Below, piece by piece: positions 11,001 to 63,631 of a DNA stretch of 64,000 nucleotides. The DNA comes from Mya arenaria. Taxonomy: Eukaryota > Mollusca > Bivalvia > Myida > Myidae. The DNA lies in the NCBI RefSeq assembly GCF_026914265.1, contig NC_069123.1, forward strand, positions 47,996,949-48,060,948. Direction: 5' to 3'. The notes beneath the pieces were generated by a model. It did not search any database. It was not told where the DNA came from and worked only from the letters and a program-made list of their open reading frames with translations. Each line of letters starts with the position of its first letter. Positions within the stretch are counted from its first letter, which is position 1. A program made the position numbers and the translations under genes.

Positions 11001-14000
11001 AAAGCGAAGATACATTACTTTTTAAGATATGTTTTAAACCTATTCTGACTATTCTATACAAATATACCATCACAAGAAACTCACCAGCTCTATCTTCATC
11101 AGTGTCGTTCTCATCGGCGCGACTGATGGTGACAAAGTCTATGACCTTGGACGTGAAGTCAAGGACAACGTGGGTCTGTCCCTGCATGATGCTCACAGTG
11201 TGCTTATCCCCATAACTAGCTCGGGGCATTCCCCCAGAGAATATGATGAAGGAGTCTCTGGGAAATAAAAGTTTATTATTTATGTATATTGATCAGAGTT
11301 TTAAACATTAATTCACGGATGCCATGGTTCCTGATATAAAGTCCAACAAGACAACATATGGGAAGCAAATACAAGAAGTACCAAATCTTTATAATATAGA
11401 ATAAAAAACAGTGGCCCTATAAGTGTATTTGTTTACGCCTTTATTGTAATGTTCTTTAATCCATGAGTGCAATATTTTCAAGATAACAATATATACTAAC
11501 GCTTTAGCCGTCTTCCAATCCATTTGGAATATGGCTTTGCAAGGGAATGGCCCTGAAAAGAGTCGGAATAATTTTAATTTCATGCAGAACACAAATACAA
11601 TGCTGCATAAAAATCTTCTGTTCAATAAGTACACTATTGCTACTAGATGAGTACACTATTGTTACAATCAATTGTTAAGAAATTTACCAGCAGGCTCTTC
11701 TATCTTAAATGACAGGCAATTTGTACATTTAAGTACCTGCCAGTAGAATTTACATTCCAAAAAAAGCACATCTAACCATAAGGTGTCTGGGCAGGTTCCT
11801 TGGGTTCTGAGGAGTTAGCGGCATCCCATGTGATGTAGCTACCATCGGCATGGGCACTCATAAACTCTTCTCCGCTGCGGGACCAGCATAGCGACTCTAG
11901 TTGCTGAAATGTAAGTAAATACTTCAGTTTGCATCTTCTAAACTTAATGTTCCTTCAGAGGACTTTGCTAAGATTTTATTTACATCCCAATGTTATAAAG
12001 ACAAAGTTGTACGTTGACCAAGCAGTGCACTAAGACAATGTGCTATAATTTATAATTGTAATCTATATCTGATGAAAAACAAAAAATCACAAACAATGGT
12101 CGTCACTGGCCTTTAATTCTGACGATATGGAAAGATAAATAAAAGATTATCTTGGTCGTGCATATGATTGCATATCTATGATCTAAATTGTAACCTTGTA
12201 TTGTTATCAGATTTCTCTTAAGTCTAAGGCAAATCACCAGTAAACAAGACAACAGATCAACTTATACTACCACTAATCGCTGATATCATATCAGCACAAA
12301 TATTTCCAAGAATTAAAGTTGCAAAGAAAATTAACAGGTAAATATCTGCTGTATTCTTTACAGTTGATATGACTTTTTTATATGATTGGTAACCTTTTAG
12401 GCTTAAACAGGTCTAATGTCCAAAATTGACTTAATTGAGTATATGTTAGGTCATAGAACCGAAGTTTGCTCACCTGTGTTGAGTTGTAAGTCTGTTCAGA
12501 GTTGCTGGCCTTGATGTCCCACAGAACTATCAGCCCTCGATTGTAACCTATCAGAAACTGAAAGCATAGGAATGCATAAGTTCATTGCATGTAACAAAGG
12601 GAGTATGATACAAAGTTCACACATCTGAATATTTTTTTTGAACAATTATGTTTTTGTTAAAAAAATTATTTTGGTACTGTTCTGTATTCTTATTAAAACT
12701 GCATTCTCACAGATTGACTGTTTTGACAACTTTTTAATATTTTGTCTTGGAATGAATCAATTTTGCGTATATGTCTGAAAAGTGGTGATATAGTACTGCT
12801 GATGAAAGTAAGTTCATAGTTTTTAATATTACGCTCTGAAATTGATGTTTTGTGGCAAAGAGCGTTACTTACGCTTTACGAGAAATGAAAATTTCGGCAG
12901 TTTTCCAAACAATTGAAATCTGTTCTATTGTTGGTTATCCTATAAAACTTATATGAAACCATTGACAAGACAAAAAATGAAAAACATTGTCAATCTTTGA
13001 GAGTGCAGCTTTTACAGTTAAAACAGTTCTTAACATCTTTATTCCTGAGGCAGAATTTCTGAAATTCCCATTACCTTGTCAGGATCCTTACAATGTACAG
13101 CAATAGACTCCACTGCACCAGGATTTACTTTGAAGTCATCTGGTACACTGGAAATGTCAAGATAAACCATTTTGATATGACCCCCATAAAAGTAGTACCG
13201 GCAGATTCAAATATTAAGAAATATATAATTTCATTACATATTGTTTTAAACACTTAAGCCATGAAATCTTAAGCATAATAAAATATGAATAATTGTATAA
13301 TATGTAAGAATTCTAACATGATCAAATAGCCATTTGCACGTAAAAAGTGCAAGCATACAGCAATATTAACCATTTAAGACCTAGAAATAACAATTAGTCA
13401 ACAGTCCCATTGAAAGATAAAGTAACCTGTCATAATCCGACCACAGCCACAGTGGTTTGACCCATTATCTTATTACAGCACATTCCACAACTTCAATTAA
13501 GCTTTAATTGGATTTAAAGAACAGCACCTACTTTGTGCAAGCTATTTTGAGATCGGACAAAGTACATTTGTCTTTATTTGTTTATTGATAGGTTCATCAA
13601 GAACGAAATACCTAAACGGTCAATTGATGAAATAAAATGGGATTAACTGTATGAGACATAAACAACAGTCAACTGGAAGTAAGTAATCAGGCTTTAATGA
13701 CAACAATCCTCTTACATCTCCAAAAATTTCCACATTTCTTGAGCAGTAATGAATGGTCATATTTATAACAGTATGTGTTTACTTATTATTTTATTTCTTT
13801 AAATGAAAGATAATACTTAGATGTTTTATTTCCAAATTTAGGCATATTAAAGGGGTCATGTTAATCTCACATTGGGCATGTGAAAGGGGTCATGTTAATC
13901 CCACATAGTGTGTGTTAAAAGGGGTCATGTTAATCTCACACGGGGCATATTTAAAGGGAAGTGTTTCCTCTACATTGAGCATATCAAAGGTGTCATGTTA

Positions 14001-17000
14001 GAATATCAAAGGTGTCAAGTTAGAATATCAACTGTGTCATGTTAGAATATCAGAGATGTCATGTAAGAATATCAAAGGTGTCATGTTAGAATATCAAGGT
14101 GTCATGTTAGAATACCAAAGGTGTCATGTTAGAATATCAACTGTGTCATGTTATAATAGAATATCAAAGGTGTCATGTTAGAATATCGAAGGTGTCATTT
14201 TAGAATAGAATATCAAAGGTGTCATGAAAGAATATCAAAGGTGTCAAGTTAGAATATCAAGGTGTCATGTTAGAATATCAGAGGTGTCAAGTTAGAATAT
14301 CAAGGTGTCATGTTAGAATATCAAAGGTGTCATGTTAGAATATCAAAGGTGTCATGTTAACCTCAGATTAAGCATAATAAAGGGGTCATGTTAACTTCAT
14401 GTTTGGCATATTGAATGGGCCATGTTAACTCTCTACATTGAAAATATAAAAGGGGTAATGTTAACCTCACGGATACTGACTTCTGCATGACGACGTCTTG
14501 GTAGATTATCTGGTCCATGAGTGTGAAGGACTTGACGTCCAGGATGAGAATGTTCCCACCCTCGGTACCCAGCAACAGTTGCTCATGGTTCGTCGTCAGG
14601 CAACACGCCGAAACAGTCTTCATCTTGCTGAAGGTGGAACATAAGTAAACTTGCAAAAGCTTTATTCAGCTTCCTTTGATGCATACAAAGGGTAAACCTT
14701 TGATAAGAATAAGAATTTGTCATAAGTTAACAAACTGTGTTCACGATTGCATAAACAGATGTACATGTTAAAAAGACTGATTCTTCAACACAATAGATTT
14801 TTAGAGAACTTTTGAGTGTAGGAAAGTGCTTCCTTATACTGAATAACTCTGTCTGGAAGATGGTAGCAAACTTTTATTAAACACTGAAAGCAAGAGCCCA
14901 ACCAGTACTTACTTGTTCTCGATGACAAAGTGTTTGACCTCGTCAAGGGAAGAGTTAGTTCCGTCGCGGTCATTGTTGATCTCCCACAGGTGGAGGCTGT
15001 TGTCTGAGCACTGCGATATCAACCGACCCTGTAAACACACAGCTACATATATATGCCCTGATGAGTGGATGGATACATACTCAACATTCTTCCAAAAATA
15101 ATAATTAGTAATTTAGTAATTACAAATATAAGTAGGGATTTATAATAAGTAATTTTGTAAGTGGGGTCTCCAGAAGGCTCTGATGTTTAAAATTACTAAC
15201 ATACTAAATTATGTATTAAAAAACAATCCCCACATGCAGCATGTTACCATGAAATTAATGTATTTGTCAAGTTTATTAATGTTTAATCAGGTATTAACTC
15301 TAGGTTAGCTAAGATGGAATCTCTGTTCAGCCATGAAAAACAAAAAATATGCAGAGATTTCTCAATTTTAAATCAGACCTACAATTAATTTAATATTAAA
15401 ACAAAGAGAGAACATTGGAAAATTCAATATCCAAGCATGTTAGTGCATATATCACATACAAAGCAAGTATTTCACCAAGACAGATTTATTGTTTCAAATT
15501 AAGGGTTTGACAGCTGTCAGATACAAATGTAGCTGGCATGCAACAATATCTGTTTTCTTATACCAATGAATTCTCAACAATATCATGGGATGAAAATTAT
15601 AAGGAATGTTTAATATTTCCATGGAAATGACTGTTTTATGAAAGCAACAAAATATTTTCCAACTGATACAGTACTTTCAGCAAATAAAACTGACTATCAA
15701 ATACTAGGGGCAAGTATCAAATTACAGGCCAATTTTAAAATTGTTTAGTTCAAAAGAATGTGGTAGTGACTGCTACAGTGGTTGTAAGAAGGGTAAATAA
15801 GTGAGAGGTCAATAACATACAAGTAACAGCAAAAACAGTTCATTTTACACCTCAGCAATGAACAACTGCTAAATTACAGACACATCAGACTTTGAACCTT
15901 GTCTATAACCAGATTTGAATCATGCTAGATACATAAAGTCTGCATGTTTGTTAAGAAGCATTTTTTACAGGGCCAGCTGTTACTACAGTAATATATCAAT
16001 CAATTGTATTAAACAGACATAGGAATGTCGGAGTTTTCTATAATGACCACAGATACATATTAATTATCTTCAATTACAGTAGTTGAGGGGTACAGGGGAA
16101 CATTTATTATTTTGTAATAAATTTACCAAATGCAAGGACTTTTGACCATAGTATGTCCTTCAATTACAATGATATTCGTCTACTTTGGTCAAACCATGTT
16201 TTTCTGACTTATTGCAGTGTTTTTTCCACCATTTTGGGAATGAGGCCGGGCCTTTTTGATTGGGAAAAATTAGTTATTTTGACAAAAAATGAGGAATTCT
16301 TATTTTGTCCAAAAAAACATAATGATCAACAATGCTTTAAAAAATGGAAAATATATTTATAACAATGTTACATAGTTTGTTTCTTGAAGATTGCACTAGT
16401 TCTTCCATAAGAAAATGGTTTAGGGGTCCAATTCTTTTAAGATGTCAAATCTTCTTTTTTCCAATTTTGAAAACAGAAACTTAGAACTTCATTTACATTT
16501 TTGGGAAAAGATTGTTTTAGCATTGGAAATTTGCGGAAATTTCAGCCTTAAATTGGTCAGAAGAACATAAAGTGAATTACAATCAGTAATTCATTATCAT
16601 AATTAATACAGGTATTGTACAATTAAACTGCCGATTCAAACAGTAACCTAAATAAGCCACTTCTTTGTTGTTTATCTATTAACAAGCTCCAATTAATTCA
16701 ATAACAACAAGCACTGAAGAATAGCACTCAATTACTAAGCCCAGAATGCATTATTGAACAAAAGTCACAGCAGATGCAACAAGACACTTGACCAAAACTA
16801 ATACAAATTTTCCAGTCATTGTCCCTAAAGGTGAATATTTGTACAATGGCCTTATGGACCTTTACACCATTCAATAGCTCTATTGTATTTAGACAACACA
16901 TCAGGTAACACAGACCCAGAAATTGCAGTAGCGGAGGTTTGTGTTTTTCTTCAGGGAAAGCGGCTTTCCACTAATATGGAATTTTATGGGCCATTACAGC

Positions 17001-27621: not shown

Positions 27622-28720
27622 CTATTGACGAAGTTCCCGGTATTGTTCTGTAATAATTGCCATGAGAATACAGTTATCTTGTTTCTCATTGTATAACTTG
27701 AGAAAATACTTAATAATACGAATATGTCGCTCAATATATAATGGAAATCTGCCTAGCTTGTAGAGCGTTTGACATTTAGGAGCACTTGCAAAATTTTCTA
27801 TGTACTCTTTCAATAACCTCTGTCTGGATGTAGCCCCATACTTCAAAGTTATAGTTCAAAATAGACAAAACAAGTGCATCAAACAGATTAAACGTAATAT
27901 CAATAGGGACGCGGTTATGCTTGAGCAGAGCCTTAAGTGCATTCATAGAGCGCAATGCCTTTCCCGCCAGCGTGGTAGCTGCCTGCATGAAAGATCCACC
28001 ACTGGAAAATACAATACCGAGGTAGTTAAATGAATTGACTATATCAACAGCCTGATCGTTATAAGTCCACTTATCGGATTTTCCTATACGCCCCCCTTTT
28101 CTAAATACCATTATCTTAATTTTTTCCACATTGACCGTCAAATTCCATTTGCTACAATAAGTACTTAAATTATTCAAGGATTCCTGTAACCCCTCCCTCG
28201 TCTCTGACAGAATAGCGGCGTCATCTGCAAACAGCAATAAATATATTGAGATCTCATTGACTGTGAGACCTGCATTTAAGCTTTGTTGTAAATGGGGTTC
28301 GATATCATTGAGGAAGAGAGAGAAGCAAATCGGGGAGGTTATTTCCCCCTGGAACAAGCCAATGTTACTTTCAAAGAGATCAGACAAAGACCCCAAGTGT
28401 TTTATGCACATTTTCACCTCGTTATACATCGACCGCAACAGGGACAAAAACTTTCCATCTATACCAAGTTTGATTAGCTTATACCAGAGGCGCCCCCTAT
28501 CAATGCAATCATATGCCTTACGGAAGTCAACAAAACAGCAATACAATTTTTTCTTCTTTCCTAATTGCATTTGTATAATTGAGTTGAGTAAAAAAAAAAC
28601 GCATCAACCGTACTGTACTTGCTTTTGAAACCAAAGTGAGCATCAGTCAGAATATCTTGCTCTTTAACGTCTGTTAACGTCTTTTCAAACCAAACAAAAT
28701 TATCTTTGATCATTAATCAT
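27622..28720 (-). pseudogene. Broken LINE reverse transcriptase
   Basis: Read on the minus strand, the order is: LTDAHFGFKSKYSTVDAFF (RT finger region, about 28655-28599); a frameshift at a ten-base A run (about 28589-28598); then a 264-residue frame (28570-27776) with FVDFRKAYDCIDR (first catalytic Asp), GLFQGEITSPICFSLFLND and LLFADDAAILSE (the FADD active-site box), followed by FNYLGIVFSSGG. A second frameshift near 27780-27846 moves the LGRFPLYIERHIRIIKY block into another frame. No endonuclease domain or ORF1 is nearby. It is a non-LTR element of the same family as the fragment at 23760-24440. With two frameshifts and both ends missing, it is not expected to be active. Confidence 0.9.
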
Positions 28721-30115: not shown

Positions 30116-33100
30116 CGCACGCGCACGCGCACACACGCACACACACCCACACTCGCCCATGCTTTGCAATACCAGTGAAGGTTTAGTTTCAAACAAAGTC
30201 AAACATTTTGTTGGCAGAACATACTCTTTAGACAGCTGGTTTGAAGGGACTTTAATTCATATCTTATAGGGTTTTAATCTCGTCTATATTCTTTTATATA
30301 TTCATGGCATAAATTATATATACTTTATTTTGCCCCAAAGCGTATATATGTAATGCTATGAAAACATCACGAACCATTTTAGGCCGGTTCTGAACAACTA
30401 GATTAATGTCAGTTACTCTTTAGTGTTTATCACATACTGATTAAGTAAATAACCGTATAGATCTGAACACATGCTAAAAAAGAGCCACGTTATAAATACG
30501 GTATACTCGTACAATGTTCTGAACACATTTTACATGTAAGTAATATTCCACCTACAGATGTGCTTATCACGATGGGGTCTGTCGGAATATGTGGGTCTGA
30601 CTTGAAGTATTGGCAGACGGGCAAGTGTGGGCGGTTCTCCCTGGATGCCCCCATGGTCATGGGCCACGAGGGGGCCGGTACCGTTCTCAGGCTGGGGTCC
30701 AGGGTGAAAGACCTCAAAATAGGTAGGCCAAAATGTGAATAATGTTGTTTACTTGAAACTGAAGTTTAGGAACACAGTGTATCTATACATTGAATCCAGA
30801 GACAGTTATTTCAAAGTTACCAAAATGCTCATCAATGACCAGGGAACGAATTCAATGTTTGACTCATCAAAGTTCTTGCACACAACATCCCGTCTTCCCA
30901 TGGTGAACATTTGAGGCAATTTATTTTAAAATCCGGTGGTACATGGCATCCCTAACAATCCGATATACAACGAAAATTGATCCGGATGACCCCGTGTGCG
31001 ACCCGGCTTACCTTTTGACCCACCGACACGTGTCTAGGACGCGACACGCAGACTCACTATGGTAAACATTTGCGTCAACTCTTTTCAAGATCACCTAACA
31101 CATGCCCAAGTTACATCCGAATAAGTCAAATACAAAGGGTTTTGATCAATGGCCATTGAGTGTGTCCTTGACATTTCATATGCAGACATAGATCTTGCAC
31201 ACGACACGCCGTCTTCTAATGGTGAACATTCGAACACGTTTGACCAACGATCCTAGTGAAGTGTAACTTTGACATTAAAACGGATCTTGCACGAGACACA
31301 CTGACTTTTTATGGCGAACATTCGGCCAAGTTAAATTAAAATCAGTATATGCGTGCTAATGTTACAGTCCGGACAACACCTGATGCACGCACTGACAAAC
31401 ATACGACCTCCAGCGATCTCGACTTTAAGAATCAACATTAATGGAGGTTTGATTAATATAAGTAAGACTTATTTAATTTATCCTTTAGTGTTAAAAGAAC
31501 AGCTTTTGTCAAACCTTTGAGGAGGACTACATCATTTGCGCCATACATTAGGTGACAGTGTGGCGGTGGAGCCGGGTGTCCCGTGCCGCGTGTGCCGGCT
31601 CTGTAAGTCAGGCCGCTACAACCTGTGCAAGGACGTTACCTTCTGCGCCACCCCACCCGACCATGGCAACCTGTGCCGTCTCTACAAACATCCGGCAGAC
31701 TTCTGCTTCAAGTACGATCGCTGTTCTCAGAATTATTGCAATTCAAAGAGTGCAAATAATAACAAGACGTTGTGTAATTATATTTTACAAATTCGCACCT
31801 ATTTTCCGCGAAAATTATTGTTCAAGACTTCCCAGCGTTGGGTAGCCTTTATAAATACACGTTATATCTTACTTTTCCAGTTTAACAAGGATCGTCAAGT
31901 ATTTAGTTTATTCTTGATTTGCGCATGTTAGTGGGTTTCTATAATCCATTTGTTCACAGACTTCCTCCACACGTTAGCCTAGACGAGGGTGCTCTGCTGG
32001 AGCCGTTAGCGGTGGCCGTCTACAGCTGTCAGCGGGGAGGCGTCACCGCCGGTTCAAACGTCCTCGTCTGCGGAGCAGGTAGAAACGTGCTGTTATGCCA
32101 GACAGACAAGCAGTCGCCATGATCTTGATCTTTCAAATATGTTAACCCAAGGTTTAAATAGTAGAAAGTTTTACACAACAGTCAAGTAGTGGATCCGTTG
32201 TCTAGTGGTAACACACGACTGTCAATCCAAGGGTCGCAGGTTCGATTCACCGCCGCTTCACTAAAACAAATACTAATATTTTTTCGGGAGAAACGTTAAA
32301 TGGGTTTGCCGTGTGACAGTGTACACACAGGTGCACGTTAAAGAACAAGGGTAGCTTGCATTCTGTCAGTGCACTATGGTACAAAAACCTAATATGACTA
32401 ACCATCTTATCGGAACTCTCTCCAAATGGGCCTTGTCCGAGTATAAATAAACTACCCCCGCCCCACTTTCTTTCGGTCTTGATTCCAGATTTATACCGAG
32501 ATTGTTTTCCCTACGGGGTACCGACACTAGCACTAAATCATCTCATTTTTTATAAAGGTCCGGTGGGGGTTTTGACGATGTTGGTTGCAAAACGTATGGG
32601 AGCAGCCCAAGTGATTGCTACTGGTAAGTGCTTTCCAAAGTCACAGGATGCTTTATTTGGACATGTATATAGAACGTTTGCAAACCTGGCTTGGTTGGCT
32701 CGTTTGCATACACTAAACCATTAAAGGCCTGACTAACTTCGAAGGAATAAAAAGGCATAGAAACTATCATATCCGCCACGTTGAGTTTCGCTTAAAAATG
32801 AATATATGCCCCCTAATTCTACCATCAATATTTTCCTTAGACATTTCCGACCACCGTCTGGCTCAAGCCATGTCACTGGGTGCTGACCACGTAATCAAGG
32901 TCAACACCGATGACCCCAGAGAATTAGCCAATGACATCGCGGAGACGCTTGGAGAGCAGCCTGACGTCAGTGTTGAGTGCAGTGGCGTCGACTTCAGCTT
33001 TCGGACAGCTATACACGTGAGCAGTTGACACGTGCAGTTAATGGGCTTTTCAGCTAACTCATATACACATCAGAATTAAATTAAACATTTCTTTGAAGTA

Positions 33101-49621: not shown

Positions 49622-52600
49622 TCACACGAGCGTCCCCCGGCAACCGTCGCCGCTGCATGCCGGAAACGGGTACGTGTCAGGGATGACGAGTGTCTGGGTG
49701 GTGAACTCAAGCACGGAGTCGTCCAGACCCGGGAACGTCACCTACAACCATACACGGCAAGATAAAGGTTGCATTTGGGAGAGTTTATATAGGACGCGTA
49801 CACTTCCTGTGTCTGATGTCATCAACATGGTGTTTTTAGCATATCCACTAGAGTGTAATATAAATGAACTATATTCGAGTATGATATTGAACGCCGGAAA
49901 ATCAATTATTAATTTAAATCTTTTATGATTTATCAAGAAGATGTTTGGTGTACTTGAATGAAGAACGCGGTCCAACCAACATCCGGATTTTTGAATTCCA
50001 CTTCCCAAGACAGATCACTCTGGAATAAACACAACCCGTTCAGAAAGTACATGTATTCAAAAACATCACTTATGAGTTATCATAAACGGACAACCCCGAG
50101 CATTTTAGGGATGCCTATTGTCGTTACTATCGTTACTCGTCGCATTAATGATGTTCGCGAATCCAACAAGTAACTCGTAACCCTGACATACTCACGAGTT
50201 GGCGTATAAACCGTTGTTACTTTTACTGTAAGCGTTATACAGCATTTTTATTCAGTCAAAACTGTTCAGAAACTTTGACGCAAGCACGTGCGCTATCTTG
50301 TGTTAAGTAACATCCGGATCAAGTTGAAATAATAATTATGCAATATCTGAAAATACCATGTACTCCTTATAGAACATGGAAATATACTCGATCACTGCTC
50401 GATATGAAGCGGATAGAATTTTGCCACTACCCATGTATTAAGCATTAACCCGAGTATAAATGAGAATAGGTAAGCCAAACATGTACATGATTTTGTCTTT
50501 TGTCATGTTTTAATGACTAGTTTGCTCTTTCTTTAAACAAATTCACACCTCAACCGGTTTCAATTTACATTTGAAACAGTTTAGAAATGTGCGCCTTTAC
50601 ATAATTAATCAATAAAGTTATAAACATATCTTAAATGTTTTTACTTTGAAAGGGCACATGGTATATACATAATTTGCAAGAAAACGAAACAAACTATATT
50701 ATTACGACTAATAATTAGCTCTTACCGTGGGAGTGACATACTGCTTACGCCAGATAACCGGGTGGACCTGTGGCTTTCTGGGGTCATTGGGGGTCCCGCG
50801 AAGTAATCGGAAGTCTTTTCTGAAAGTGGATCAGATGCCATTTTTAACATGTTTGGTATCGTTTTCTCTCATGCATAGGTAGATTTAATAATTTATTGGC
50901 ACTCATAATTTATCGATCAACCCAATTATTCCTACGTTACCTTTTTCCATCGAGGGTGGTGGCGTAGAAGCAGTGGACTGTAGTAGGCGTCGTGTCGGTC
51001 GTCAGGCTAATCTGTCCGCCCGTCGACGTCTGCAGATAAGTATGGCAACATGATAAACTATTTTAATGTGGCAAGCATGAACACAAACTGCTTACGATAC
51101 TACTGCGCGTATAAACATGAAATATTCTGGTTTTACCTCCATGTATTCTGATATTTGTATAGCCAAAATGGTGTCTGTCATCTCTAAAGAATTCAAATGT
51201 ACATTTAATGAAATGCGGATGTTTAAAAACATAATTTTGACACTTTACCGCCAGATTTGGACTGGATTAATTTTAAAGTGAACGTCTTCGAAAATGATAT
51301 ACAGCAATTTAAACCTAGTGATCATGTCTCAAAAAGTCCTCCTACCGTGTTAAGTTTCCAATTCAACTGCGGTAGTTTCTTATCCTGAAAAGGTTTATAA
51401 ATCTCTGTCATGTGTTTCAAATGAAAACAACAACAACAACAACATTGTTTAAAGATGAGCAACATTGATTATATTTTCTTTTTTGAACAAGTTTAACATC
51501 TTCAAAGTGATTCTCAGACTCTTCATTAACTGCAGTTTCTATGATCTGCTCTATTTCATCAATGAGACAAAATGGTGTTAATCGCTCACATTCATGACTG
51601 AGAGGTAGAATGCCCGAATGCCGAACAGTAATCCAATCTCATGGCCCGCTAAGCTGTGCTCCGCGTTAGGAACCATCCTGGAAGTGTCAATTGTAGTGTT
51701 TATTACACGTGAGTCTATTCAATTCTGATTTATAAATGAACAGCCATGATGTTACCATAAGACATGAACATTGCATTTGTTGAGTAAGGTTAGCGACCAG
51801 AAAACCTAGATCATATTTAAGATAATCATCAAAGGTAAAAAAAAAAAAATATTGTTAATGTGTTGGGAAGTATTTATTGCGAGATCAGAAAGCAAATAAA
51901 CAGACCACACACATGATAGCATCATGGAAGCGTGTTTAAATTTCATTAAAAAACTAAATCAAGTGTTAAAACTCTAGCGTACAGTATGTGCAATAACCTG
52001 GGTGTAATGATCTCTTATAAAAAACAGCAACTCAGAGTCGCAACTGGTTTAAACTTTAAATGCTGTCATGTATGGTGAATAATGCACTTTCTCCAGTCTT
52101 TGCTCTAATATGAAAATAAATCTATTGAAATCAGAATGATATAGGTCCCATTGAACTAGGTAAGTATAGCATACAAGAACGTGTTTCTAAAAACTACTTT
52201 TGTGCCATCAAAATCACAATTCGGATATTGTATAGGACAGAAAATCAGAAATTAACACCAGCGCAATCAATCGTCAATGAGCATATATTAAAAGAACAGC
52301 AATAATGACAATGTATGAATATAAACGTACCTGAGGTATTTTGGTCCCATTAGATCGTCAAAGTAGAACCTGGAGTCATCGATCATGAAGAACTCGTCCC
52401 CTCCAGTACTGATGATATATTTGGGCTTGTTCATATAACGCTCGTTGTACGCTGCAACATTAGCGGCATAGAACACGTGTTATTCAGATATCATGTAGAC
52501 ATTTGGTTGTGCACTATGAACAGGTTAACGCTGTTTACTCGCATATACATGAGATATTCTTGTAAAATAAAACCATTTTGATAGTGATAAAACACTGGAT

Positions 52601-55600
52601 AATCATTTTGTTCAAATACATATTGTTTGTATTACACTGAAAACCTACATTTGTTTAATTATAAATAAAACTGAATTGTTTATCGTACACTAATGAACGT
52701 TTTCAGGTTTTACATCAGTTTTAAAAGAGTGTGAAACAACTATTTTATCAGAACTATTTTAATTAATCATACGGCATTCGGCGGATGTATACACGGATGT
52801 TCACATTATATTGTAATGATGGCGGCAATGATATGGGATAATGACTCGATCAACTTTTTAAGTAGTCAGATGGGATTATGCTTCGTTGCAAAAAAACTTG
52901 AGCCATACACAGAACAAGGACTGAAGTATGTGCACGCGGAGGTTTCTAAAGTAATGGCCGCTGTCCCACCTTGCACAGTCCAATGCAGTCGAACATACGG
53001 CAGTAACATAACAAGGTAAAGCACCTTCATACTAATGAGATTATTGATGACAGTTCTACATCCATAATAATTATTACTATGCTAGGAAAATAATGCTTTA
53101 AACTGACTTTCTCGTGTTTCAAGATGTTTGTTTTGCTGTACGATATCTGATGTATTTAATGATTTGTAATTGTAAGATGTTTTCACTCCTTAAGCCTACC
53201 TTTTGAAATAGATAAATCAATACACATTGAATTACAATAACAATAAATCTAAAACGAACGATTATTGTATATCGATTGAATACAGTGTTTGGTATTGATT
53301 AGGCACAAATAAATCTTTCATTGATAGCTGGTGCAAAAGTTGTCGGGGTTGGAAAAAATGGTTGGACCAGTTTAGAAGAAAAAGAGTTCCATTAAACATA
53401 GCTCGATGTCATTCATGGAAATGGAACGAGTCATACCAGGATATTATTGAATTTTATTGTCCAAATGAATGGGAGACTATTCCCGGTATACGAGACATAG
53501 CTTGCAGCTGTCATATTTGGAAGAATTGCACAAAGTTTAAGATCAAGTCTTTTGTAACATCCAATGTACAGAAAGTCAGAAATAAGTATGTGGCCCACAA
53601 CCAGGATTTGAAAGTCAGCGATGATCAAAAGAGTGAAATATTCGATGCTCTACAAGACCTTGTAAAGGACAGTGACATTTCCAACATTGATACTAGAGAA
53701 TGCATAGAACAACTTATAAACATTCAAAATGGCGATGTTTGCAACGAAGTTACACGCATGTTACATATGCAACTCAAGATTGATCAGCATCAAGTGACAT
53801 TAGAAAGTATTGAGAAGACAGTTGAAAGGATATTAGCACAGACCTTTGACAGCCAACATCCTGGATTAAACGTTCGGAACATTTGCAAGACAGCATTTGG
53901 TCAGCTTACAAAGTGTTTTGTCATATGTTTTATGGTCATGATTATTGCAACCATGATTATTGCATTTACGTTCACGTACGTAAACACACCGAAACAAGGC
54001 ATCGTTGAACAGTACAGTGGTAAGGTGTTTTTTTTTTTAAATTTGAAATATCTTTTAAAATCAAAACCGATAGTTCAGCTGCAAACAATTTAGGAAAACC
54101 CCATTTATCTTTAAGATTTAAAAGATTAGTAGCAAACTAGCACACCTGCATTTTTGAATATTGATTTATCTGTAATACAAAAACCATTGTAGAACATACA
54201 ACTATGCACTTGTCTACTTGCAGATACATGTATTTCCGAGGATTATTCATTTCCAGTACCACAAGATCTGCCTTTGAACGGCTATTTTTCTAACCACGGA
54301 CCCCTCGTTGGAAGGGACTGGCTTTTTGCTGAATTAGAAAAAGATATATTTAAAGATGATAAAATGCATGGCATAATTATAAAGGCTGAACTAGGATATG
54401 GGAAATCCGCTTTGGTCAATCAAGTATTATGCGCAAAGGATGGCGAAAAGGGAAGTCACATGAAAGCGAACGTTGTTGCGTTTCATATTTGTAAGTTTGA
54501 TGTCGCAAGCACAACTAACCCGGCCAGATTTGTCACGAGAACAGCAGGACTTCTATCATCAACAATTCCAGAATATAAAACCTTTCTCAAAGAGAAGCTT
54601 CCAGCTGACTCAATCATATATGATCGGTTTGAATGTGAACGAGAAATTGAAGCATGCTTTGATCAGGCCATTACTATTCCTTTTCAAAAACTAAACAATA
54701 TCAACATGGGCGTTCGCGCAAACAAACTATTCGTTATAGATGCCATTGATGAATGTGTTGACCCTCGTGTCAATAAAAATCATATAATGGATATTTTACT
54801 TTCAAGGATGTGGAAATTTCCAAAATGGATTAAATTCCTGATTACATCGAGACATATAAATCTTTCTGAAGATATTCTCCGATATTTTCACGAAAAGCTG
54901 CTTCTTGCGCAAGATTCAAGAAATGTCGAAGATATAAATAAATATATTATAGACAACATGCCTGTGTCTGTAGATGCCGATATTCTCTTGAAACAGAGTG
55001 GTGGAAACTTTCAATATGTTATAAGTGTACTGGAGCTCGAGGAAAATATATTGAATATCAATCAAAGCTTACCCCGATCGATGGATGACATTTATAATCA
55101 TAATTTTGATAGATTGTTTCCTAACCAAGAAAGTTTTGACATGGCAAAAACGACTTTTGAAATTGTTGCAGCTTCATATTTCAGAAAACCGTCGGACCAA
55201 CTAAACGATCTGCTTTCTTGGAATAAAAACCAACTTTACGGTAAAGCTACATTACAATTTGATGTACTAAGTCATTTTATTGCAAACCAAAGTGAAGGGT
55301 TGACATTTTATCATCAGTCGCTTTTTGTTTGGTTGACAAGCAACACAAACCAAAAATACAGGATTTCTGTTCCAAATGGACATGGGATGATTTCAAACTA
55401 CTATTTGAATAAATCACTCATAAGTACAGTATCAGATCTGGTTAAACTTTCCATTCACGTTGCGGAGTCAAGGAATGAAACACTTCAGACCAGGTTTATG
55501 TCCCTTCGTTTAGGCGAATTTAAACAGAACCCTATCCACGAGTTCATTCGAAGATACTCCTCTGTAGCGGGACTAAAACTGTTATTTCACCACTTTCCCC

Positions 55601-58600
55601 GATTGAATGATATGGACAAATACGGCGAAACTATGGCGTTTATTGCAGCCAAACAAGGACATACAATGCAACTGAAATATCTGGAAACACACGGGAATAT
55701 CTTTACCTTTAGAAAACACAGCAATGATGTTTTATATAAGAATTATTTGCCAACAAGGTTAGGTCAGAACGAAACATTATCTGGATTTAATTTGTTACAT
55801 GTTGCTACGATGTATCATAGGATTGACGCAGTTAGATATTTACTTACAAAGCTTGATACACCTACCATTCAACAGAAAACTGCCATGGGTCACACTGCAG
55901 ATGAAATTGCATGCGAAAAGGGATTTTTAGACATTCTCTCTGTTCTGAAACCATCAGCCGATAAGTTTGTGAATTGTATGTATTACGCTGCTGCGGAAAA
56001 TCATATTGAATTGATAAAGATTTTATCGGAAGAAATGAAATCCTCGCAGATTGAATGCGTTTCTGACAGTGAATCACAACTGGCGTTTGACCAAGTGACA
56101 GAAATAGCTTTGGACAATTGGTACGAAAAAGACCCGTCACAACTCCTAGATTTGTCGTTGTCTATCAGAGCAATGAAAGACACACCCCTCCATATGGCCG
56201 TTAGAAGGTTCTCCGTAGACGTTGCAGAATTTTTGATAGACACATATCCTAATCTTTTGAATTGCAATAATGCGTTTGGAATAACACCAATGTTACTTGC
56301 AGTAAACTTGAACAGATCTTCCCTATTTAAAGGAATGGTTAACCAGGTTATGTTGGACAAATGCTCTGAAAGATCGTTGGTAATTAACAAAACCTTAGAG
56401 CATACCTGGATGGGTTATTCAGATATTGGCTTTATACATTACCTTGTGATGTTTGGAATATGTGACAACTTCTGCATCCCGGGGATGACATTCGCCCACC
56501 TTGCTGTGCTTCATAACAGACAACACATGCTAAAGTTTGTTCATTCTAAGTATGGCTCAATGTTTGAATGGAATGTTAAGGACTATTCAGGGAGATATCC
56601 TCATGATTACAAAGGAATATCTGACACTGTATTATACCGATGTAAGAAATTCTTCTCTCTAGTTGATTCTGGTTTACTGGAAAACCAGATACATTGATAC
56701 ATGGTATTAAACAGAAACTACGAGAGACAAGGAGGATACGTTTTCTAGTACGTTTTCATGATTCCTAGCCTCTGATCCCATTTCACAACATCTTTTGTAC
56801 GATAAGGTTTGGTCAGGTATTGAACTCTTGATCTCCAATAGGAGAAGACTCTAGATAAACCCTGTGTACGAGATAAACCCTGACAGATAAATATATACAA
56901 GTATGGACTGACAATGTTATGCGCCTTGGATTTTTATGTTTAAACTTTTGGCTACTGAGCTTGTTTCTGTAGTTTTTCACATAAGTATTAGAAGTTGTGT
57001 GGTTTGTATCATATATTACATAGACTGGATTTTTTTGTGTTCTACGTTTACAATATAATACTACTATGGCAGTAACATATATGTCGGCGGAAATGGAGGG
57101 CGGGATGCTACTCACAGATAGGGTCTATGATGGCAGCCATAGCCTTGATGTAGGGGTTGTCCAGCTCGGCAGTAAAGTTCAGGTCGTAGTAGTCGCCAAA
57201 CGCGAACGTCCATCCGCCCAGCGACCGAAAGTAATGGTGCAGGTTCTATCACACAATGTAGAATATGTGTATTTAAAAATGCAAATAAACTGAAACCGTT
57301 TGAGAAACGATAAATGCTTATAAATATAGGTTTTAAATTATCATTTGTGTTTTATTGCAATCGGTTTTGTGAATAATTAATTGTTTGTAAATTATGTTAA
57401 AGGAGTAACTGCTGATCTGGTCTAATGGCTTGATTTAGTCAAACCGAAGAAATGACGAGTTGTTTATGCATTAATAATTGGCTGCTGAAGGAAATACAGA
57501 CACATGGATATAAGTGTTTTTACCATATGCAATCTAATACAATTTTTGGTAAATCCTATTTAAATACTATAGCCTTACTGTCTGCATGTGTAGAAGGTCC
57601 ATAACGATGGGTGCTATGGCAACCACGCGCTTGTCTACCGCTCCGACAGTCCACGTGGTCCAGCCCCGCTGAAGTCACACAGTATTTGCCATATAATACA
57701 CATCGTTTACTTGAATGTTATAATTTTATAAAACGCTGGACTTGATTGTAATTGCATCAATAAGTTTGATCTTTGAAGGTCAGACAGTCAGGTCAGAACT
57801 GGCCCCAATTTTAGGATGTCTTATATCAGGATCAAGCTCAGTGCACTATTTTTGATTAAGTTTAACATGTGTAATATTCTCTTTTTGAAAGAGTGGTGAG
57901 GCCTTTAAAGGGACGGAACACCAGATGATACAATTGCAAGAAAAAAAAGAAAATTGTCAAAACTTGTTTGAAATGACATCATCTGTATATTTATCTGTAC
58001 TAATTAACAGATATGATTCATTCAAACTGGGAAACCATCATGCGCCATTTATAAGCGGGGAAACTACATGAGACAGCAACATGAGTGTTGCGTTCATTCT
58101 TGTGAAATGATGCATTATCGGCATCCTACTATGAGGAAATACTGTATTTGCCGATTGTTGGACCATCTGGTGTCTAGTCCCTTTAAAGGAAATACTATTT
58201 GTGATAAATAAGATAAAATACATTTTTGTTTTATAAAATCATATTTAAGTATGTATTTTTTCTAAATGAAATAGGATACTTAAGTGACGGGCTTTTAAGG
58301 TGTTTCTCTGAGAAACCGGGGCCTAGGTAAAACTGCCGCGAAGCGTGGTTTTCAGCAGTGTTTGCAAAAACAGAACGTTTATATCAAGTAAAAGGGTACA
58401 TACATGAGTCTGCTACGCAAATATTATAAACTACATATCCTGGTAAACATACTGACCTTGGATGCGCCGGCGACGAGGAACCTGTTGGTCGGCTGTCCGT
58501 GCTTCTTCATCGTCAAATCATTCATCGTGTCCAAGGCACGTACACCAGCCTACATCACATATAAAAATGATATAATAGCACAGAGTTCACTTATGCGGAT

Positions 58601-61076
58601 GTTGTTCATTGGAGGTAATGGGGTATTGACCGTGATCATATCCGTGTGGACATAAGGACGAGATGAAGTATATACTTAATTTCTTCATAGTGTTGAACAA
58701 TGCATGATCTGATACTATACAACCACTATGGATTTGTCGTATCCTGTATTTTCACCCGTTATGAGCGTACCTTGGTCATGGGCATGCGCAGCAGTATTTC
58801 CGGGTCGGCGCCCTGCTGGTCCACAAACGTCTTCCACGTCCACGCGATGATGGCATCCTCTGTCCGCTTCTTTTGCTCAGGGTCCGCCTGCAAAATTACC
58901 GCGTGGTGACACAGCCGCTGATGTGCGTCAATTGAACACCATTGAACCGTTATTTGCGAATATATTTCGATCAGTACATGGTCTATGATGTTACAAGTTA
59001 CGTCTGGATCATGTTCATGAGAAACATTCATCTAATCAGACATTGGTGAGTAAAAAGTGTATACCTTGAAAACGATTGGCTGGTTGGGGACCATCTTGAG
59101 GTTGGCGCCTACAGAGTTGGTGGAGACGGCCACCACCGTCGTTAACTCTACAAACGTGTCTGTGGGCTTCGGAGGTCTATGGAAGTAAAACAAAGAACGA
59201 CCAATCGTCTGTCAAAGACCAACATGCATGTCACATTGTCTTCCCTATCTTTTTCTATTTGTATAATTCAAATAAAAACCCTAATAAAGGGAAATTAATC
59301 TGGATGCTTAATTGTTTAAACCTGATCACATGTACAAATTCGCAGAGTATTTTAGCCTTAGTACAGCCCAGTATGTTGCTTACTCGTTGTTGTTAGATCC
59401 CCCGTCGATGAATAGAAAACCAGCGTTGCCGAGGTCCAGCTTGTCGGGGACTGTCACGCTCAGGTAGTGCCACCACACAGGCTGGCTTTGTATGTCTGCA
59501 ATCATCACAACAAAAATACATATGTGTAACGGATGTATATTTCATGATGTTTAAAAAAATTAAACCCTCCAAACATTTAGACCAATGACTTTTCTTGTAG
59601 AATATGTTGATCTGCATTGAAGATAATATGAAAATTGACGATGATTACCTTCCCTTAAACTTGAAATAAGTCAAATATTTCATGTACGTGAAGTTAGCGG
59701 CCTAGCGTACTTCAAGTACATATTTATAATTCAAGGTTTTCACACTGTCAGTTTGAGACGGAAAGTTGAGAGGGAAAGTATTTTGTTCCCAATGACGATG
59801 TTTTTATTTACTGTAGGACAAATAACGTTTTACATGACACTCGACAAACATGATAAAGTATGATATTTATAAGGTATACACTGTGAAATATTGTGATTTT
59901 CAATTCTAGGTTTAGTTATATTTATTATTTCCAATGTTTTTTTTTAAAGTTGTTGTTTTTTTTCCTCCCGGGACCTGAATACCCGGTCCCTTTAGTCAGA
60001 GAGAAAAACTTTTCTCACATCATAGATAATAGAGCCAAATATTTGGCCATGCTGAAAATCCTTTTCTAGTTCAATAGCAAAGTACCCGTACGCATAAAAT
60101 AAATTTAATTACATTTTTACTATATTTAAACTGTGGTGGAAGAAAAGGCATCTACCATGGCCGCTCGTGTAGGGTAGGTTCATTCCTACCCTCGCGCATG
60201 ATGTTCTACGGAAAGCTCGATAAACCCTCGATTCCGTTAATTATCCGAAATTGGGTTGGGAAACATTTATCTTTCAGCCCGACCCACGGAAGATGGTTAT
60301 ATTCTATATTAGGATTTCTCTGTTAAACGTACAATGAAAAAACTAACCTTCGACTCAATTGTATTTGTGTCACTGTTTAAAGGATATCATAAAGAAATAT
60401 AATATGTAACATATCTATTAGTTAACATTACTTTTAGGGCACCGTCACGTCCATGTAGTACCATCATATAGGCTGGCGCTTTCGGTCAAGACATCATGAC
60501 AATGTATGCGTTATACTTTATATTGTAAGTTTTAGGAGGGTTTTAGGAAATGTTACTATATTTGAGGAAAATGTGTTATTATAAATGTTGTGTATACATG
60601 CATAACGTATCCTTAACTTCCGTGTTGGTTTAATATGTAATATGTAAGTATTGGAAAATCATTGTGAATTAATCATAATACTAAACTATTACACTAAGCA
60701 CATTAGGTTAAGTGAACTGTGTTTTTAAATAAGCTTTTAAAAACATTCCAATTTTTGATTAAACCTGCTCAGATTGATTATCATTTATCTTTTGTTCTTT
60801 ATTGACTGAATAAACTCGCTATGAATGATGATATCAAAAAACAAGTTTACACTTCCTAATGTGAGAGTGAATTATAACGCTACCTGGTTTCCAAGTCTGT
60901 GACGTCATGTTGATGTTGTAGAGCGTGTAACCGGGGCCCCCGAACGTTTCCAAAATATCGTACTTGTACGTGGGGTCTGGCTTGTTCACGTAATCATCCA
61001 ATGGGGTGGCCAGCCCAGGTGGCACCATCCCCACCCCCAACAGGGCGCACAGAATTCCGGCAAGGTTACTCATCAT
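49622..61076 (-). CDS. Secreted PhoPQ-related / AprA-like protein, alpha/beta-hydrolase fold, 13 exons, 465 aa
   Basis: Exons in transcript order: 61076-60884, 59495-59384, 59176-59065, 58887-58771, 58549-58457, 57668-57579, 57245-57116, 52451-52331, 51677-51590, 51384-51346, 51029-50941, 50819-50726, 49741-49622. All junctions are GT-AG and in phase. Signal peptide about 1-23 (NLAGILCALLGVGMVPPGLA), then TPLDDYVNKPDPTYKYDIL, the start typical of this family (Pfam PhoPQ_related; also Dictyostelium AprA). Candidate catalytic residues by position are Ser208 (VAGASKRGW), Asp301 (STGGDEFF) and His330 (MVPNAEHSLAGHE). The substrate is unknown. The family name comes from a bacterial regulon and implies no pathogenic role here. 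The ATG at 61076 was chosen because no ATG precedes it in frame and it gives a clean signal peptide. Intron 7 (52452-57115) contains a complete opposite-strand gene; intron 5 holds a foldback MITE. Confidence 0.92.
52816..56697 (+). CDS. HEPN-TM-NACHT-ankyrin protein, 3 exons, 1121 aa, nested antisense
   Basis: Exons: 52816-53015, 53328-54019, 54224-56697; GT-AG and in phase. Residues 1-250 resemble the DZIP3/hRUL138-type HEPN domain: N-terminal INFLSSQMGLCFVAKKL, a WCKSCRGW Cys pair (68-75), and R151-N152-KYVA-H157, the R-x5-H motif of HEPN ribonucleases. Residues 263-285 (CFVICFMVMIIATMIIAFTFTYV, split CFVICFMVMII and ATMIIAFTFTYV) are one hydrophobic segment. A NACHT/STAND NTPase follows: AELGYGKS (Walker A, Lys358-Ser359), LFVIDAIDE (Walker B, Asp470, Asp473-Glu474) and FLITSRH (502-508). 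Its context is closest in style to TANC-like NTPases (GRDWLFAELE before the P-loop). From about 760 to 1090 there are five to six ankyrin-like units (GFNLLHVATMYHR, TPLHMAVRRFS, TFAHLAVLHNR). Predicted role by family: ligand-gated oligomerising switch controlling an RNase; inference only. The gene lies wholly within intron 7 of the PhoPQ-related gene. Exon 1 could start one codon later. Confidence 0.88.
57904..58189. mobile_element. Foldback MITE, family B, copy 2
   Basis: The left end tttaaagggacggaacacca (then gatg) and right end catctggtgtctagtccctt (then taaagg) are inverted copies. Termini match the element at 19202-19634, and both contain an acagcaacatg or catgttgctgt inner block. It lies in intron 5 of the PhoPQ-related gene. 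Confidence 0.85.
59930..60310. other. Intron 1 segment with short palindromes, unclassified
   Basis: Within the 1.4-kb intron 1 of the PhoPQ-related gene. A gggacctgaatacccggtccc-type palindrome (about 59970-59991) and a gggtaggttcattcctaccc hairpin (about 60172-60191) stand out, but no element boundaries or target duplications could be found. Confidence 0.3.
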
Positions 61077-63631
61077 CGAAAATGATGGGCAGTGCAATAG
61101 TAATGATGCCCTAGTAATGATGTCCTATTTATCGTGTGGATACCATATGATTGAGATTGTATAAGTTATCAGATAACTATTGTCTCCTATCTAATTGCAA
61201 TAGGTTGCGTAAATGATCGCTGTGATATTGAGTTATCGAAAGTTTTGATGTAAACCCGATTTAAACTCCAAGTCAGTTTTCTTCCTTTTTTGATAGATAG
61301 ATTGTGTTACAATTTATGAGTTCAGGTCTACTTCCTTGTTTGTGATACAGCGAATAATAAATCAGTACTTAGGTTTTTGTTTTAAAACAGCTGGAAACTC
61401 CAATGACAATTCAGAATACCTAATGGCAGTTTCCCCAATCGGAAAGTGCGTTTTGCAAATCCTTGTTTGCACCGAAATAAAATAAGATACATAGGCGGTA
61501 GTATCTAATGCACATAATAAGAATGACTCGTTTTTATCCTTTGTCCGAAAAAAACAATAATTTTTAAAGAAATACTTGGACTATACGTCTTTGTGTAGAC
61601 TATCATGGTCAAGTAAGATAACCAGTCTTGTATTTCATTTCCCTTAAATTTCTTAAATTACTCACCAACGTTACGGTCCGGACGCTGTTTCTTGGATAGA
61701 TCGATTATACTGGGACAAAATGAGTGTTGGGAAGAATATCTCAACTAGGTTTGATAACCAGATATGCCCCGGTCACTTAAGAGTTTAGGTTCCTGAATTT
61801 CAGTTTGTGACAGCCTTCCACTTTTGCTTAAATTAGAAATTTAAATCTAGTTATCGCAAACTATTTAATGCTTATGACTTATATAATTTATTTTTACGTA
61901 CAGGTTAAATCAAAGCACTAAAGGTGCTAAAGTGGCGGTCGTCAAGGAAATTATGCTTGCATCGTTTATGCATTAAGGATGAAATAGTTGGAACACACTA
62001 GCAGGCTAGTAGAAAGCAAGATTTAATTTTTAATAGTCAATTTGATAAAACAATATTACATATGTTTACTCGTATGATCACTAGAAAACAGCTATTGATT
62101 TATGGATTTATTTCCACCAAATCGATTATTCCATATGTTAAAGATGGACTCTCACAGATTGAACGTTTTGACAACTTTTTTAGTTTTCGTCTGGGAACGA
62201 GCCAATTTATGCGCATAAGAGGCATGGAAACCAATCATATAAGACTGCTAACAAAATATTAGATTATTATATATTTAAGTTCAAAAAAATGATATTTTTA
62301 TGCATTTTTCTTAAACTGTTAGTAACGCTTTTAGCCATTAAGAAAATCTGCGATCTGATATTTTTCAGCAGTCTTTTATAACTGGTTTGCAGATAATTAC
62401 ACAAAAATTTGCTCATTCAAAGACAAAACAAATAAATAAAGTTGTCAAAGCGGTAAATCTTTGATAGTGCAGCTTTAATTTGTTTCAGCAATCACAACCG
62501 TTTGCATTATTTAAACAACCCATGCCAACATTAAAGTGTTAATGCCTATGAAATGCGAGTGAAACATAAAAAAGTGCAAACACTTTACACCGACACTGTT
62601 ATTTGGCCCACTCACGTTGCATTGTATATAGAAAACCAACCGGCTTGAACCTACAACCTGTCAACCTGCTTATACCGACAAAAAGTTGGGACCAATCAGA
62701 ATACACTGCATCATTTAAATCAAAGTTTTTTTGGAAAGTGTTCTTGGGTTGTTTCCAGATGATTATAGATATGAACCGATATTTTTCTTCATTTTTATAA
62801 GCTTGGGCTCAAATCGGCCTTTATAAAGATGTAACGTCTGGCAAAAGGAAACACACATTAAGGACATTAGGAGTTTAGCTTAAAATGAGTATATCTTTGG
62901 TGTTGGTCCGTCTCATTGGACCAGAAACATGCCAATCTAAGTTTTTTTTAAGGAAAACCTATACTACTAAATGGTTTCAAGTGTCAAGTATCTGTTTTCA
63001 GACAACACCTACTAGTATCTACTGATGACCACCACATGTGAAGGCTCATATGAATGTATCGGATTATTGACATAATATTCGATTGCATATGTATTGCCCT
63101 TTGTCTGTAATGCACGGTGGATAAACATATTTTTGGTTGTTTTCAATGTTGATAAACTGTGAGAAGGCCTAAATCAAATCCTAGTATGACAAACAATTAT
63201 TATATATTTATTTAAGTTATTTTTATGTTGTTAACAATGGAATATTTAACAATAATATAAGCCACTATGAAGGCCTAACATGTGAATAAACGTATATTCG
63301 TCTGATTATATTGGTCAGCTATACCTTCATTCAAATCGGCTTTTTCGGACAAAATATTCTTAGACTAAGTTATGAAAATGCAACACATATCAATTTACAT
63401 TCGTACCATAATTGTAAAATAAGGGCTTTGTGTTTGTAAAAACAAGTTTTGGCTTAACATCCGTTCCACGATTTGTGTATTTGTTGAAACAGTTTCAAAT
63501 AAATTAAAAACCAATTTTATCGTTTGTTTAACAAAAACCGAAACTGTTTTTGAGAAATCGAAACCCCACCCGAAGGCGGTTTCGTCGGTTCGTTTTATCC
63601 GAAAACTCGTTTACTTTAAAATGAGAATAAC
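61077..63631. other. Intergenic, 5' flank of the PhoPQ-related gene
   Basis: AT-rich, with no supported gene. It contains the foldback MITE at 62138-62478. The stretch 63540-63630 is less AT-rich and may be the promoter of the possible gene starting at 63632. Confidence 0.5.
62138..62478. mobile_element. Foldback MITE, family A, copy 4
   Basis: Left end ttaaagatggactctcacag and right end ttgatagtgcagctttaa, both bordered by TTAA. The interior has accaatcatataagactgct and its inverted partner agtcttttataactggtttg. This is the only intergenic member of family A in the window. Confidence 0.85.

Follow-up and report, generated by a model that had tools for sequence, protein, structure and literature searches.

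A stretch of 64,000 nucleotides from the bivalve Mya arenaria (assembly GCF_026914265.1, contig NC_069123.1, positions 47,996,949 to 48,060,948), here called the window, carries on its plus strand a three-exon gene, at positions 52816 to 56697 of the window, for a protein of 1121 residues. On sequence evidence the protein consists of an N-terminal HEPN domain of the CXorf38/DUF4559 family, a hydrophobic helix, a STAND nucleoside triphosphatase (NTPase) with a winged helix, and ankyrin repeats. We are led to suspect, with about an even chance of being right, that it is a STAND-type receptor in which a CXorf38-family HEPN ribonuclease (RNase) is the effector, the hydrophobic helix the anchor, the NPHP3/TANC-like NTPase with its winged helix the switch, and the ankyrin repeats the sensor. 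This reading is based on a PF15112 match in which R151, N152 and H157 are favoured, on intact Walker and sensor motifs, on matches to NPHP3_N, HTH_TANC1 and ankyrin families, and on published accounts in which CXorf38 is listed as active, with NACHT and ankyrin fusions, and in which DUF4559-NACHT proteins are expanded. The publications cited below were available in part, and what is said of them, including what they do not mention, refers to those parts.

An intact three-exon gene

Exon 1 (52816..53015, donor AAG/GTAAAG) encodes residues 1-66 and part of residue 67. Exon 2 (53328..54019, acceptor TTGATAG/CTGG, donor AGTG/GTAAGG) encodes residues 68-297 and parts of residues 67 and 298, and exon 3 (54224..56697, acceptor TTGCAG/ATAC) encodes part of residue 298, residues 299-1121 and the stop. 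When spliced, the three exons, all on the plus strand, give an intact 1121-residue protein in which the sole stop is the final codon. Both introns are GT-AG and in phase, and exon 3 has one stop in its own frame (the last codon), compared with 53 and 71 in the two remaining plus-strand frames. The PF15112 match of the N-terminal domain crosses the junction of exons 1 and 2. The predicted exon joins are supported by splice-site sequence and by domain matches. A preliminary description of this DNA had proposed an uninterrupted three-exon gene, which agrees with these results, and the motifs it named lie where it placed them: RNKYVAH from residue 151, GYGKS from 355, IDAIDE from 469 and TSRH from 505. 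Exon 2 also contains 14 GT sites, 12 of them ahead of the hydrophobic helix, that might in principle act as alternative donors for in-frame isoforms.

The second junction is crossed by no domain match, and read-through from exon 2 meets a stop ending at 54093. This could mean that there are two genes, one for a HEPN and membrane-helix protein terminating in the second intron and another for a separate NTPase-ankyrin protein. However, the donor and acceptor at 54019/54224 are GT-AG and in phase, and the first methionine of exon 3 is residue 345, within the NPHP3_N match that begins at residue 330. We consider two genes very unlikely.

Predicted HEPN domain

In a Pfam scan of N-terminal pieces of the protein, PF15112 (DUF4559) matched residues 8-185 (52837..53682, plus strand, with the intron 53016-53327 inside) at E 1.8e-14; the score of 54.4 bits exceeds the cut-off of 27. 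Five N-terminal pieces were compared: PF15112 was above its cut-off in two (54.4 and 53.4 bits), just below it in two (25.8 and 25.2 bits), and unmatched in the fifth, residues 60-200. Taken by themselves, residues 1-120 align to profile positions 4-113 (E 1.4e-5). Human CXorf38 contains DUF4559 (PMC4554924), and CXorf38 is described as a HEPN family that has an inserted zinc ribbon, is counted among the active ones and occurs fused to dsRBD, NACHT, ankyrin, CARD and DEATH domains (PMC3710099). Because this chain leads from PF15112/DUF4559 through CXorf38 to the HEPN families, and so goes beyond the R-x4-H pattern alone, the N-terminus is predicted to be a HEPN-superfamily domain of the CXorf38/DUF4559 family. 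The preliminary description had named a HEPN domain and proposed a profile search for HEPN similarity; the search returned PF15112 above its cut-off and narrowed the domain to the CXorf38/DUF4559 type.

The motif positions were evaluated by scoring 29 single substitutions in residues 6-190 against PF15112, for which the unchanged sequence scores 54.0 bits. In the predicted metal-independent RNase motif R151-N152-x4-H157 (53578..53598, plus strand), the score fell to 49.4 bits with R151A (-4.6), 50.2 with N152A (-3.8) and 49.9 with H157A (-4.1). The control substitutions K153A and Y154A gave 53.3 (-0.7) and 54.7 bits (+0.7). R151, N152 and H157 therefore occupy positions that the PF15112 profile favours, and the R-N-x4-H motif that was initially described as intact, with R151 and H157, is also profile-conserved. 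The motif histidine is essential in the KEN, RloC and PrrC RNases (PMC3710099).

Substitution of C69 (50.3 bits, -3.7), C72 (50.2, -3.8) and C94 (51.4, -2.6) by alanine marks these as conserved profile positions; C69-x2-C72 and C94 (53332..53409, plus strand) are candidate zinc-ribbon ligands. C134A (48.7 bits, -5.3) points to a conserved position as well. The scores of C53A (53.2), C57A (53.7), H95A (54.0), C111A (54.6), C126A (57.7) and C128A (55.7 bits) indicate positions that are not conserved, and the tryptophan substitutions W75A, W97A and W99A gave 47.2, 51.8 and 47.8 bits. It is plausible that this probably inserted cysteine motif corresponds to the zinc ribbon of the CXorf38 HEPN domain.

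Five of the 29 substitutions (E33A, K37A, H40A, H40Q and H40N) abolished the PF15112 match, and it was kept, at 52.8-54.9 bits, with Q34A, G35A, E42A, K45A, V46A and K27A. The residues involved are H40 and E33-x3-K37 (52912..52935, plus strand), a possible second HEPN motif of the Ex3[KR] form that has been described in numerous HEPN families (PMC3710099). The loss of the match is read as a prefilter effect, and it only suggests that these positions carry weight.

As a separate matter, full-length Pfam annotation may overlook PF15112 in related proteins. Published domain counts may be low, since the match here vanishes in longer scans and after five of the 29 substitutions.

Several other candidates were set aside. 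The Pfam matches to DUF4461, AbiGi, Mrpl_C and Fes1 were under their cut-offs. HEPN_AbiU2 and HEPN-like_int likewise scored under their cut-offs; their matches coincide with the R-x4-H stretch, which is consistent with a HEPN domain and was not counted as proof. A HEPN domain of the DZIP3/hRUL138 type, the one frequently described for NACHT proteins of animals, is not indicated, since PF18738 was absent from the N-terminal Pfam scans to E 10, a result limited by the HMMER filters, which at times lost PF15112. The PDB matches of the first 200 residues, the best of them a tryparedoxin (E 0.016), were taken as chance similarity around the CxxC. An NCBIfam scan of exons 2 and 3 alone gave only two matches, both far under cut-off. 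Pattern searches with exon 2 against viral contigs (six matches) and with exon 3 against genome contigs (four matches) gave none that was confirmed; these collections are viral and prokaryotic and uninformative on animals.

Predicted NTPase, repeats and hydrophobic helix

The middle of the protein contains a STAND NTPase core, matched by NPHP3_N over residues 330-507 (54319..54852, plus strand) with E 9.4e-11 in a Pfam scan of the full-length protein. It is followed by a TANC1-type winged helix at residues 596-713 (55117..55470, plus strand), where HTH_TANC1 (PF25521) reaches E 7.3e-7 and 29.5 bits against a cut-off of 27 in the full-length scan, and 26.1 and 29.1 bits in two separate pieces. 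The features of a STAND NTPase are all present: Walker A (54394-54408), Walker B with its acidic pair (54736-54753), the sensor motif TSR (54844-54852), all on the plus strand, and the winged helix. NACHT itself (PF05729) stayed under its cut-off of 26.7 in all three scans that list it, with 19.4, 21.6 and 20.6 bits and E between 2.1e-4 and 9.7e-4. Because NPHP3_N and HTH_TANC1 pass their cut-offs and NACHT does not, the NTPase is a STAND domain closer to the NPHP3/TANC line than to NACHT proper. The NACHT ATPase first proposed is therefore retained as a STAND or NACHT-like NTPase with Walker A, Walker B and TSR motifs, and not as NACHT in the strict sense.

The ankyrin repeat region covers approximately residues 742-1082 (55555..56577, plus strand), with Ank_2 at E 2e-18 and Ank_4 from residue 742 in the full-length scan. 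Tandem units of about 33 residues were scored with an ankyrin consensus, and four of the seven units listed exceed the 95% shuffle maximum of 24.5. With the whole protein as query, 129 PDB sequences match, and the 60 among the matches listed all align to the ankyrin region; ankyrin-1 matches at E 1.4e-12. These results substantiate the ankyrin-like units that had been noticed at the C-terminus. A match to PADLOC PDC-M72A (E 0.0024, with exons 2 and 3 alone as query) also lies on the ankyrin region and was taken as a repeat effect.

Between the HEPN domain and the NTPase, residues 263-285 (53914..53982, plus strand) form a hydrophobic helix with a mean Kyte-Doolittle value of 2.76 over 19 residues. 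Membrane insertion was scored with a crude script. The best segment, residues 263-282, scored -2.72, the sole negative value among the six best segments; the next best was 3.68 (residues 1031-1049), and the N-terminal residues 11-29 scored 6.04. A single hydrophobic helix, as originally described, is thus what this scoring gives.

Related proteins

The CXorf38 HEPN family shares with the Mya arenaria protein PF15112, the R-x4-6-H motif, a cysteine motif at the reported zinc ribbon, and reported fusions to NACHT and ankyrin (Anantharaman et al. 2013). It differs in that the lineages listed for it are vertebrates, Saccoglossus, Branchiostoma, Ciona and Nematostella, with no mollusc, and in that no membrane helix is mentioned for the family (PMC3710099). 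In Corbicula fluminea, DUF4559 occurs in 45 of 99 NACHT proteins, so that DUF4559 and a NACHT-type NTPase are found in one protein, called "NLRP"; the comparison is by description, and the main text of that paper mentions neither HEPN nor ankyrin (PMC8298618).

DZIP3/hRUL138-like proteins of the pearl oyster also have an N-terminal HEPN domain with Rx4H, a NACHT domain and C-terminal repeats, but their HEPN domain belongs to another family, PF18738, and their repeats are LRR, TPR or WD40 (PMC9646362). DZIP3-type HEPN domains with NACHT have also been reported in cnidarians, corals and one Aplysia protein, and HEPN_DZIP3 is among the expanded families of the Manila clam. Receptor-like TRADD-N proteins of Crassostrea virginica have a transmembrane helix, comparable to the hydrophobic helix here, and can contain STAND NTPases, HEPN RNases or ankyrins in their C-terminal portions. 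They are organised, however, around a cysteine-rich outer domain, DED and TRADD-N (PMC8195603), and the full-length Pfam scan of the Mya arenaria protein gave no match to any of these three.

No description of the order HEPN, hydrophobic helix, STAND NTPase, ankyrin was found in the available parts of the open-licence literature searched. The preliminary description knew of no characterised animal protein of this order, which agrees for the exact order with the helix. It had not taken into account that CXorf38-type HEPN fusions to NACHT and ankyrin were already listed (PMC3710099) and that DUF4559-NACHT proteins are expanded in Corbicula fluminea (PMC8298618). The domain combination is already known in kind, and the helix is the unusual part.

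Mechanism and alternatives

Several results speak against a receptor with an RNase effector. PF15112 was missed in two longer scans, of the full-length protein, which gave no HEPN family, and of a 243-residue piece, which gave only weak matches, as well as in the piece covering residues 60-200; in a 102-residue N-terminal piece it reached 18.6 bits, below cut-off. The missed matches are ascribed to HMMER prefilters. DUF4461, which is not a HEPN family, overlaps the R-x4-H stretch with E 4.5e-4 to 0.025, below its cut-off. No solved HEPN structure is among the PDB sequence matches of the first 200 residues, and single-sequence AlphaFold predictions of exons 2 and 3 had a mean pLDDT of 40.3 and 34.7, too poor to confirm a fold. 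The zinc ribbon is traced only in part, with no clear fourth ligand among the positions scanned. A single-pass helix would part the HEPN domain from the NTPase, and the flanking charges would put the NTPase outside the cytosol. Lastly, the NTPase is closer to TANC/NPHP3 than to NACHT proper, and the literature presents TANC proteins as scaffolds.

This last point suggests an alternative, which we think unlikely, in which the protein has a scaffolding or trafficking function of the TANC/rolling pebbles kind, with a HEPN domain that serves RNA binding or protein contact and with no immune role. NPHP3_N and HTH_TANC1 score above their cut-offs and NACHT scores below its own, and TANC1/2 and rolling pebbles likewise join a STAND NTPase to ankyrin repeats, TANC1/2 being reported as postsynaptic scaffolds (PMC5533708). 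TANC1/2 carry TPRs, however, and no HEPN domain is mentioned for them in the available text (PMC5533708), whereas here the HEPN domain has R, N and H at the positions favoured by the profile. No TPR family is listed in the Pfam scans of the protein, which leaves the TANC trio of STAND NTPase, ankyrin and TPR incomplete.

RNase L and IRE1 are activated by clustering, and both have a KEN-type domain with a kinase fold and are without a STAND NTPase. They resemble the Mya arenaria protein in that a HEPN-superfamily (KEN) RNase is joined to ankyrin repeats in RNase L and to a membrane helix in IRE1; C6orf70 and bacterial proteins are, with IRE1, other membrane-linked HEPN proteins (PMC3710099). 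For the receptor we favour, binding of a ligand or a damaged host protein to the ankyrin repeats would free the NTPase, which would oligomerise upon nucleotide exchange. HEPN domains brought together in this way may form active endoribonuclease sites that cut viral or self RNA, as clustered RNase L and IRE1 do, and the hydrophobic helix would hold the process at a membrane. Lineage-specific expansions such as that in Corbicula fluminea are usual for immune receptors.

The location of the helix complicates this mechanism. It lies between the HEPN domain and the NTPase; if it is single-pass, effector and switch would be on opposite sides of the membrane. The flanking charges are sparse (two basic and no acidic residues in 247-261, one basic and two acidic in 286-300, with K262 also bordering the helix) and if anything favour a cytosolic HEPN domain. 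It is unlikely that an ATP-driven NTPase would lie outside the cytosol, which leaves a hairpin, a helix that is buried until activation, or misleading charges with the HEPN domain across the membrane from the sensor. The model in the preliminary description, in which clustering activates the RNase at a membrane, overlooks this topology and would work only if the helix were a hairpin or buried, or if activation could act across the membrane.

The receptor reading has a variant, possible though doubtful and not exclusive of it, in which the helix is no constant single-pass anchor and is either buried and inserts on activation or forms a hairpin, with the HEPN domain and NTPase on the same side. 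This would remove the topology conflict, and the protein has no other strongly hydrophobic segment, the next-best insertion scores being unfavourable. On the other side, the helix is very hydrophobic (the mean of 2.76 is like that of ordinary transmembrane helices), and some 20-23 residues are short for a hairpin. A more speculative idea, to which we give a low chance, is a membrane-spanning HEPN-STAND receptor with a cytosolic ankyrin-NTPase sensor and the RNase on the far side, the two being linked by a single helix in the manner of an inverted IRE1; or else the helix would insert on firing of the NTPase, so that RNase attack and membrane damage would come together.

Neighbouring genes

The gene is flanked by two neighbouring exons of a PhoPQ_related (PF10142) gene on the minus strand (52291-61124), to which it is antisense, and is most likely inside an intron of that gene. 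Six of the seven minus-strand open reading frames (ORFs) examined match PF10142 collinearly, five above and one below cut-off; the seventh, 51420-51638, has no PF10142 match, and profile positions 153-211 and those beyond 296 were not traced in the seven. The ORF at 52291..52479, 3' of the nested gene in the host orientation, carries a host exon that matches profile positions 254-296 (E 7.6e-11), and the ORF at 57111..57245, on its 5' side, carries one that matches positions 212-254 (E 2e-5). Since these are adjoining stretches of the profile, the flanking exons appear to be neighbours in the host gene.

This antisense position between two host exons could suggest an unexpressed or inactive relic copy placed in the host gene. 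A tblastn search of the 64-kb window with the protein likewise found no second copy: apart from the exons of the gene itself it gave three matches at chance level (E of 0.14 or higher). The 1121 codons run without frameshift or internal stop, however, and the motifs are intact; as two introns are kept, it is not a processed copy. A relic is highly improbable in our view.

Elsewhere in the window, a reverse transcriptase fragment, LINE-like by its looks (RVT_1, E 3.9e-23), lies at 27779-28603 on the minus strand. At 10879-11292, also on the minus strand, is an LLGL domain (PF08366, E 3.2e-21) that probably belongs to a lethal-giant-larvae/tomosyn-like gene. A zinc-dependent dehydrogenase gene in two pieces (ADH_N, ADH_zinc_N) is found at 30467-33025 on the plus strand, and a tandem array with related units of 22, 34-35 and 43 bases at 13841-14470.

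Implications

The clam expansion that was reported only as DUF4559 with NACHT (PMC8298618) is now tied to the CXorf38 HEPN RNase family, and hence to an RNase whose part in antiviral defence or cell stress can be tested. The gene is also a case of a membrane-type helix that separates a HEPN effector from a STAND switch, and is relevant to the wiring of such receptors. For CXorf38 itself, the literature listing contains no RNase work by title, and the available text of a characterisation paper (PMC12196990) mentions neither HEPN nor RNase. The invertebrate receptor version suggests what to assay for CXorf38.

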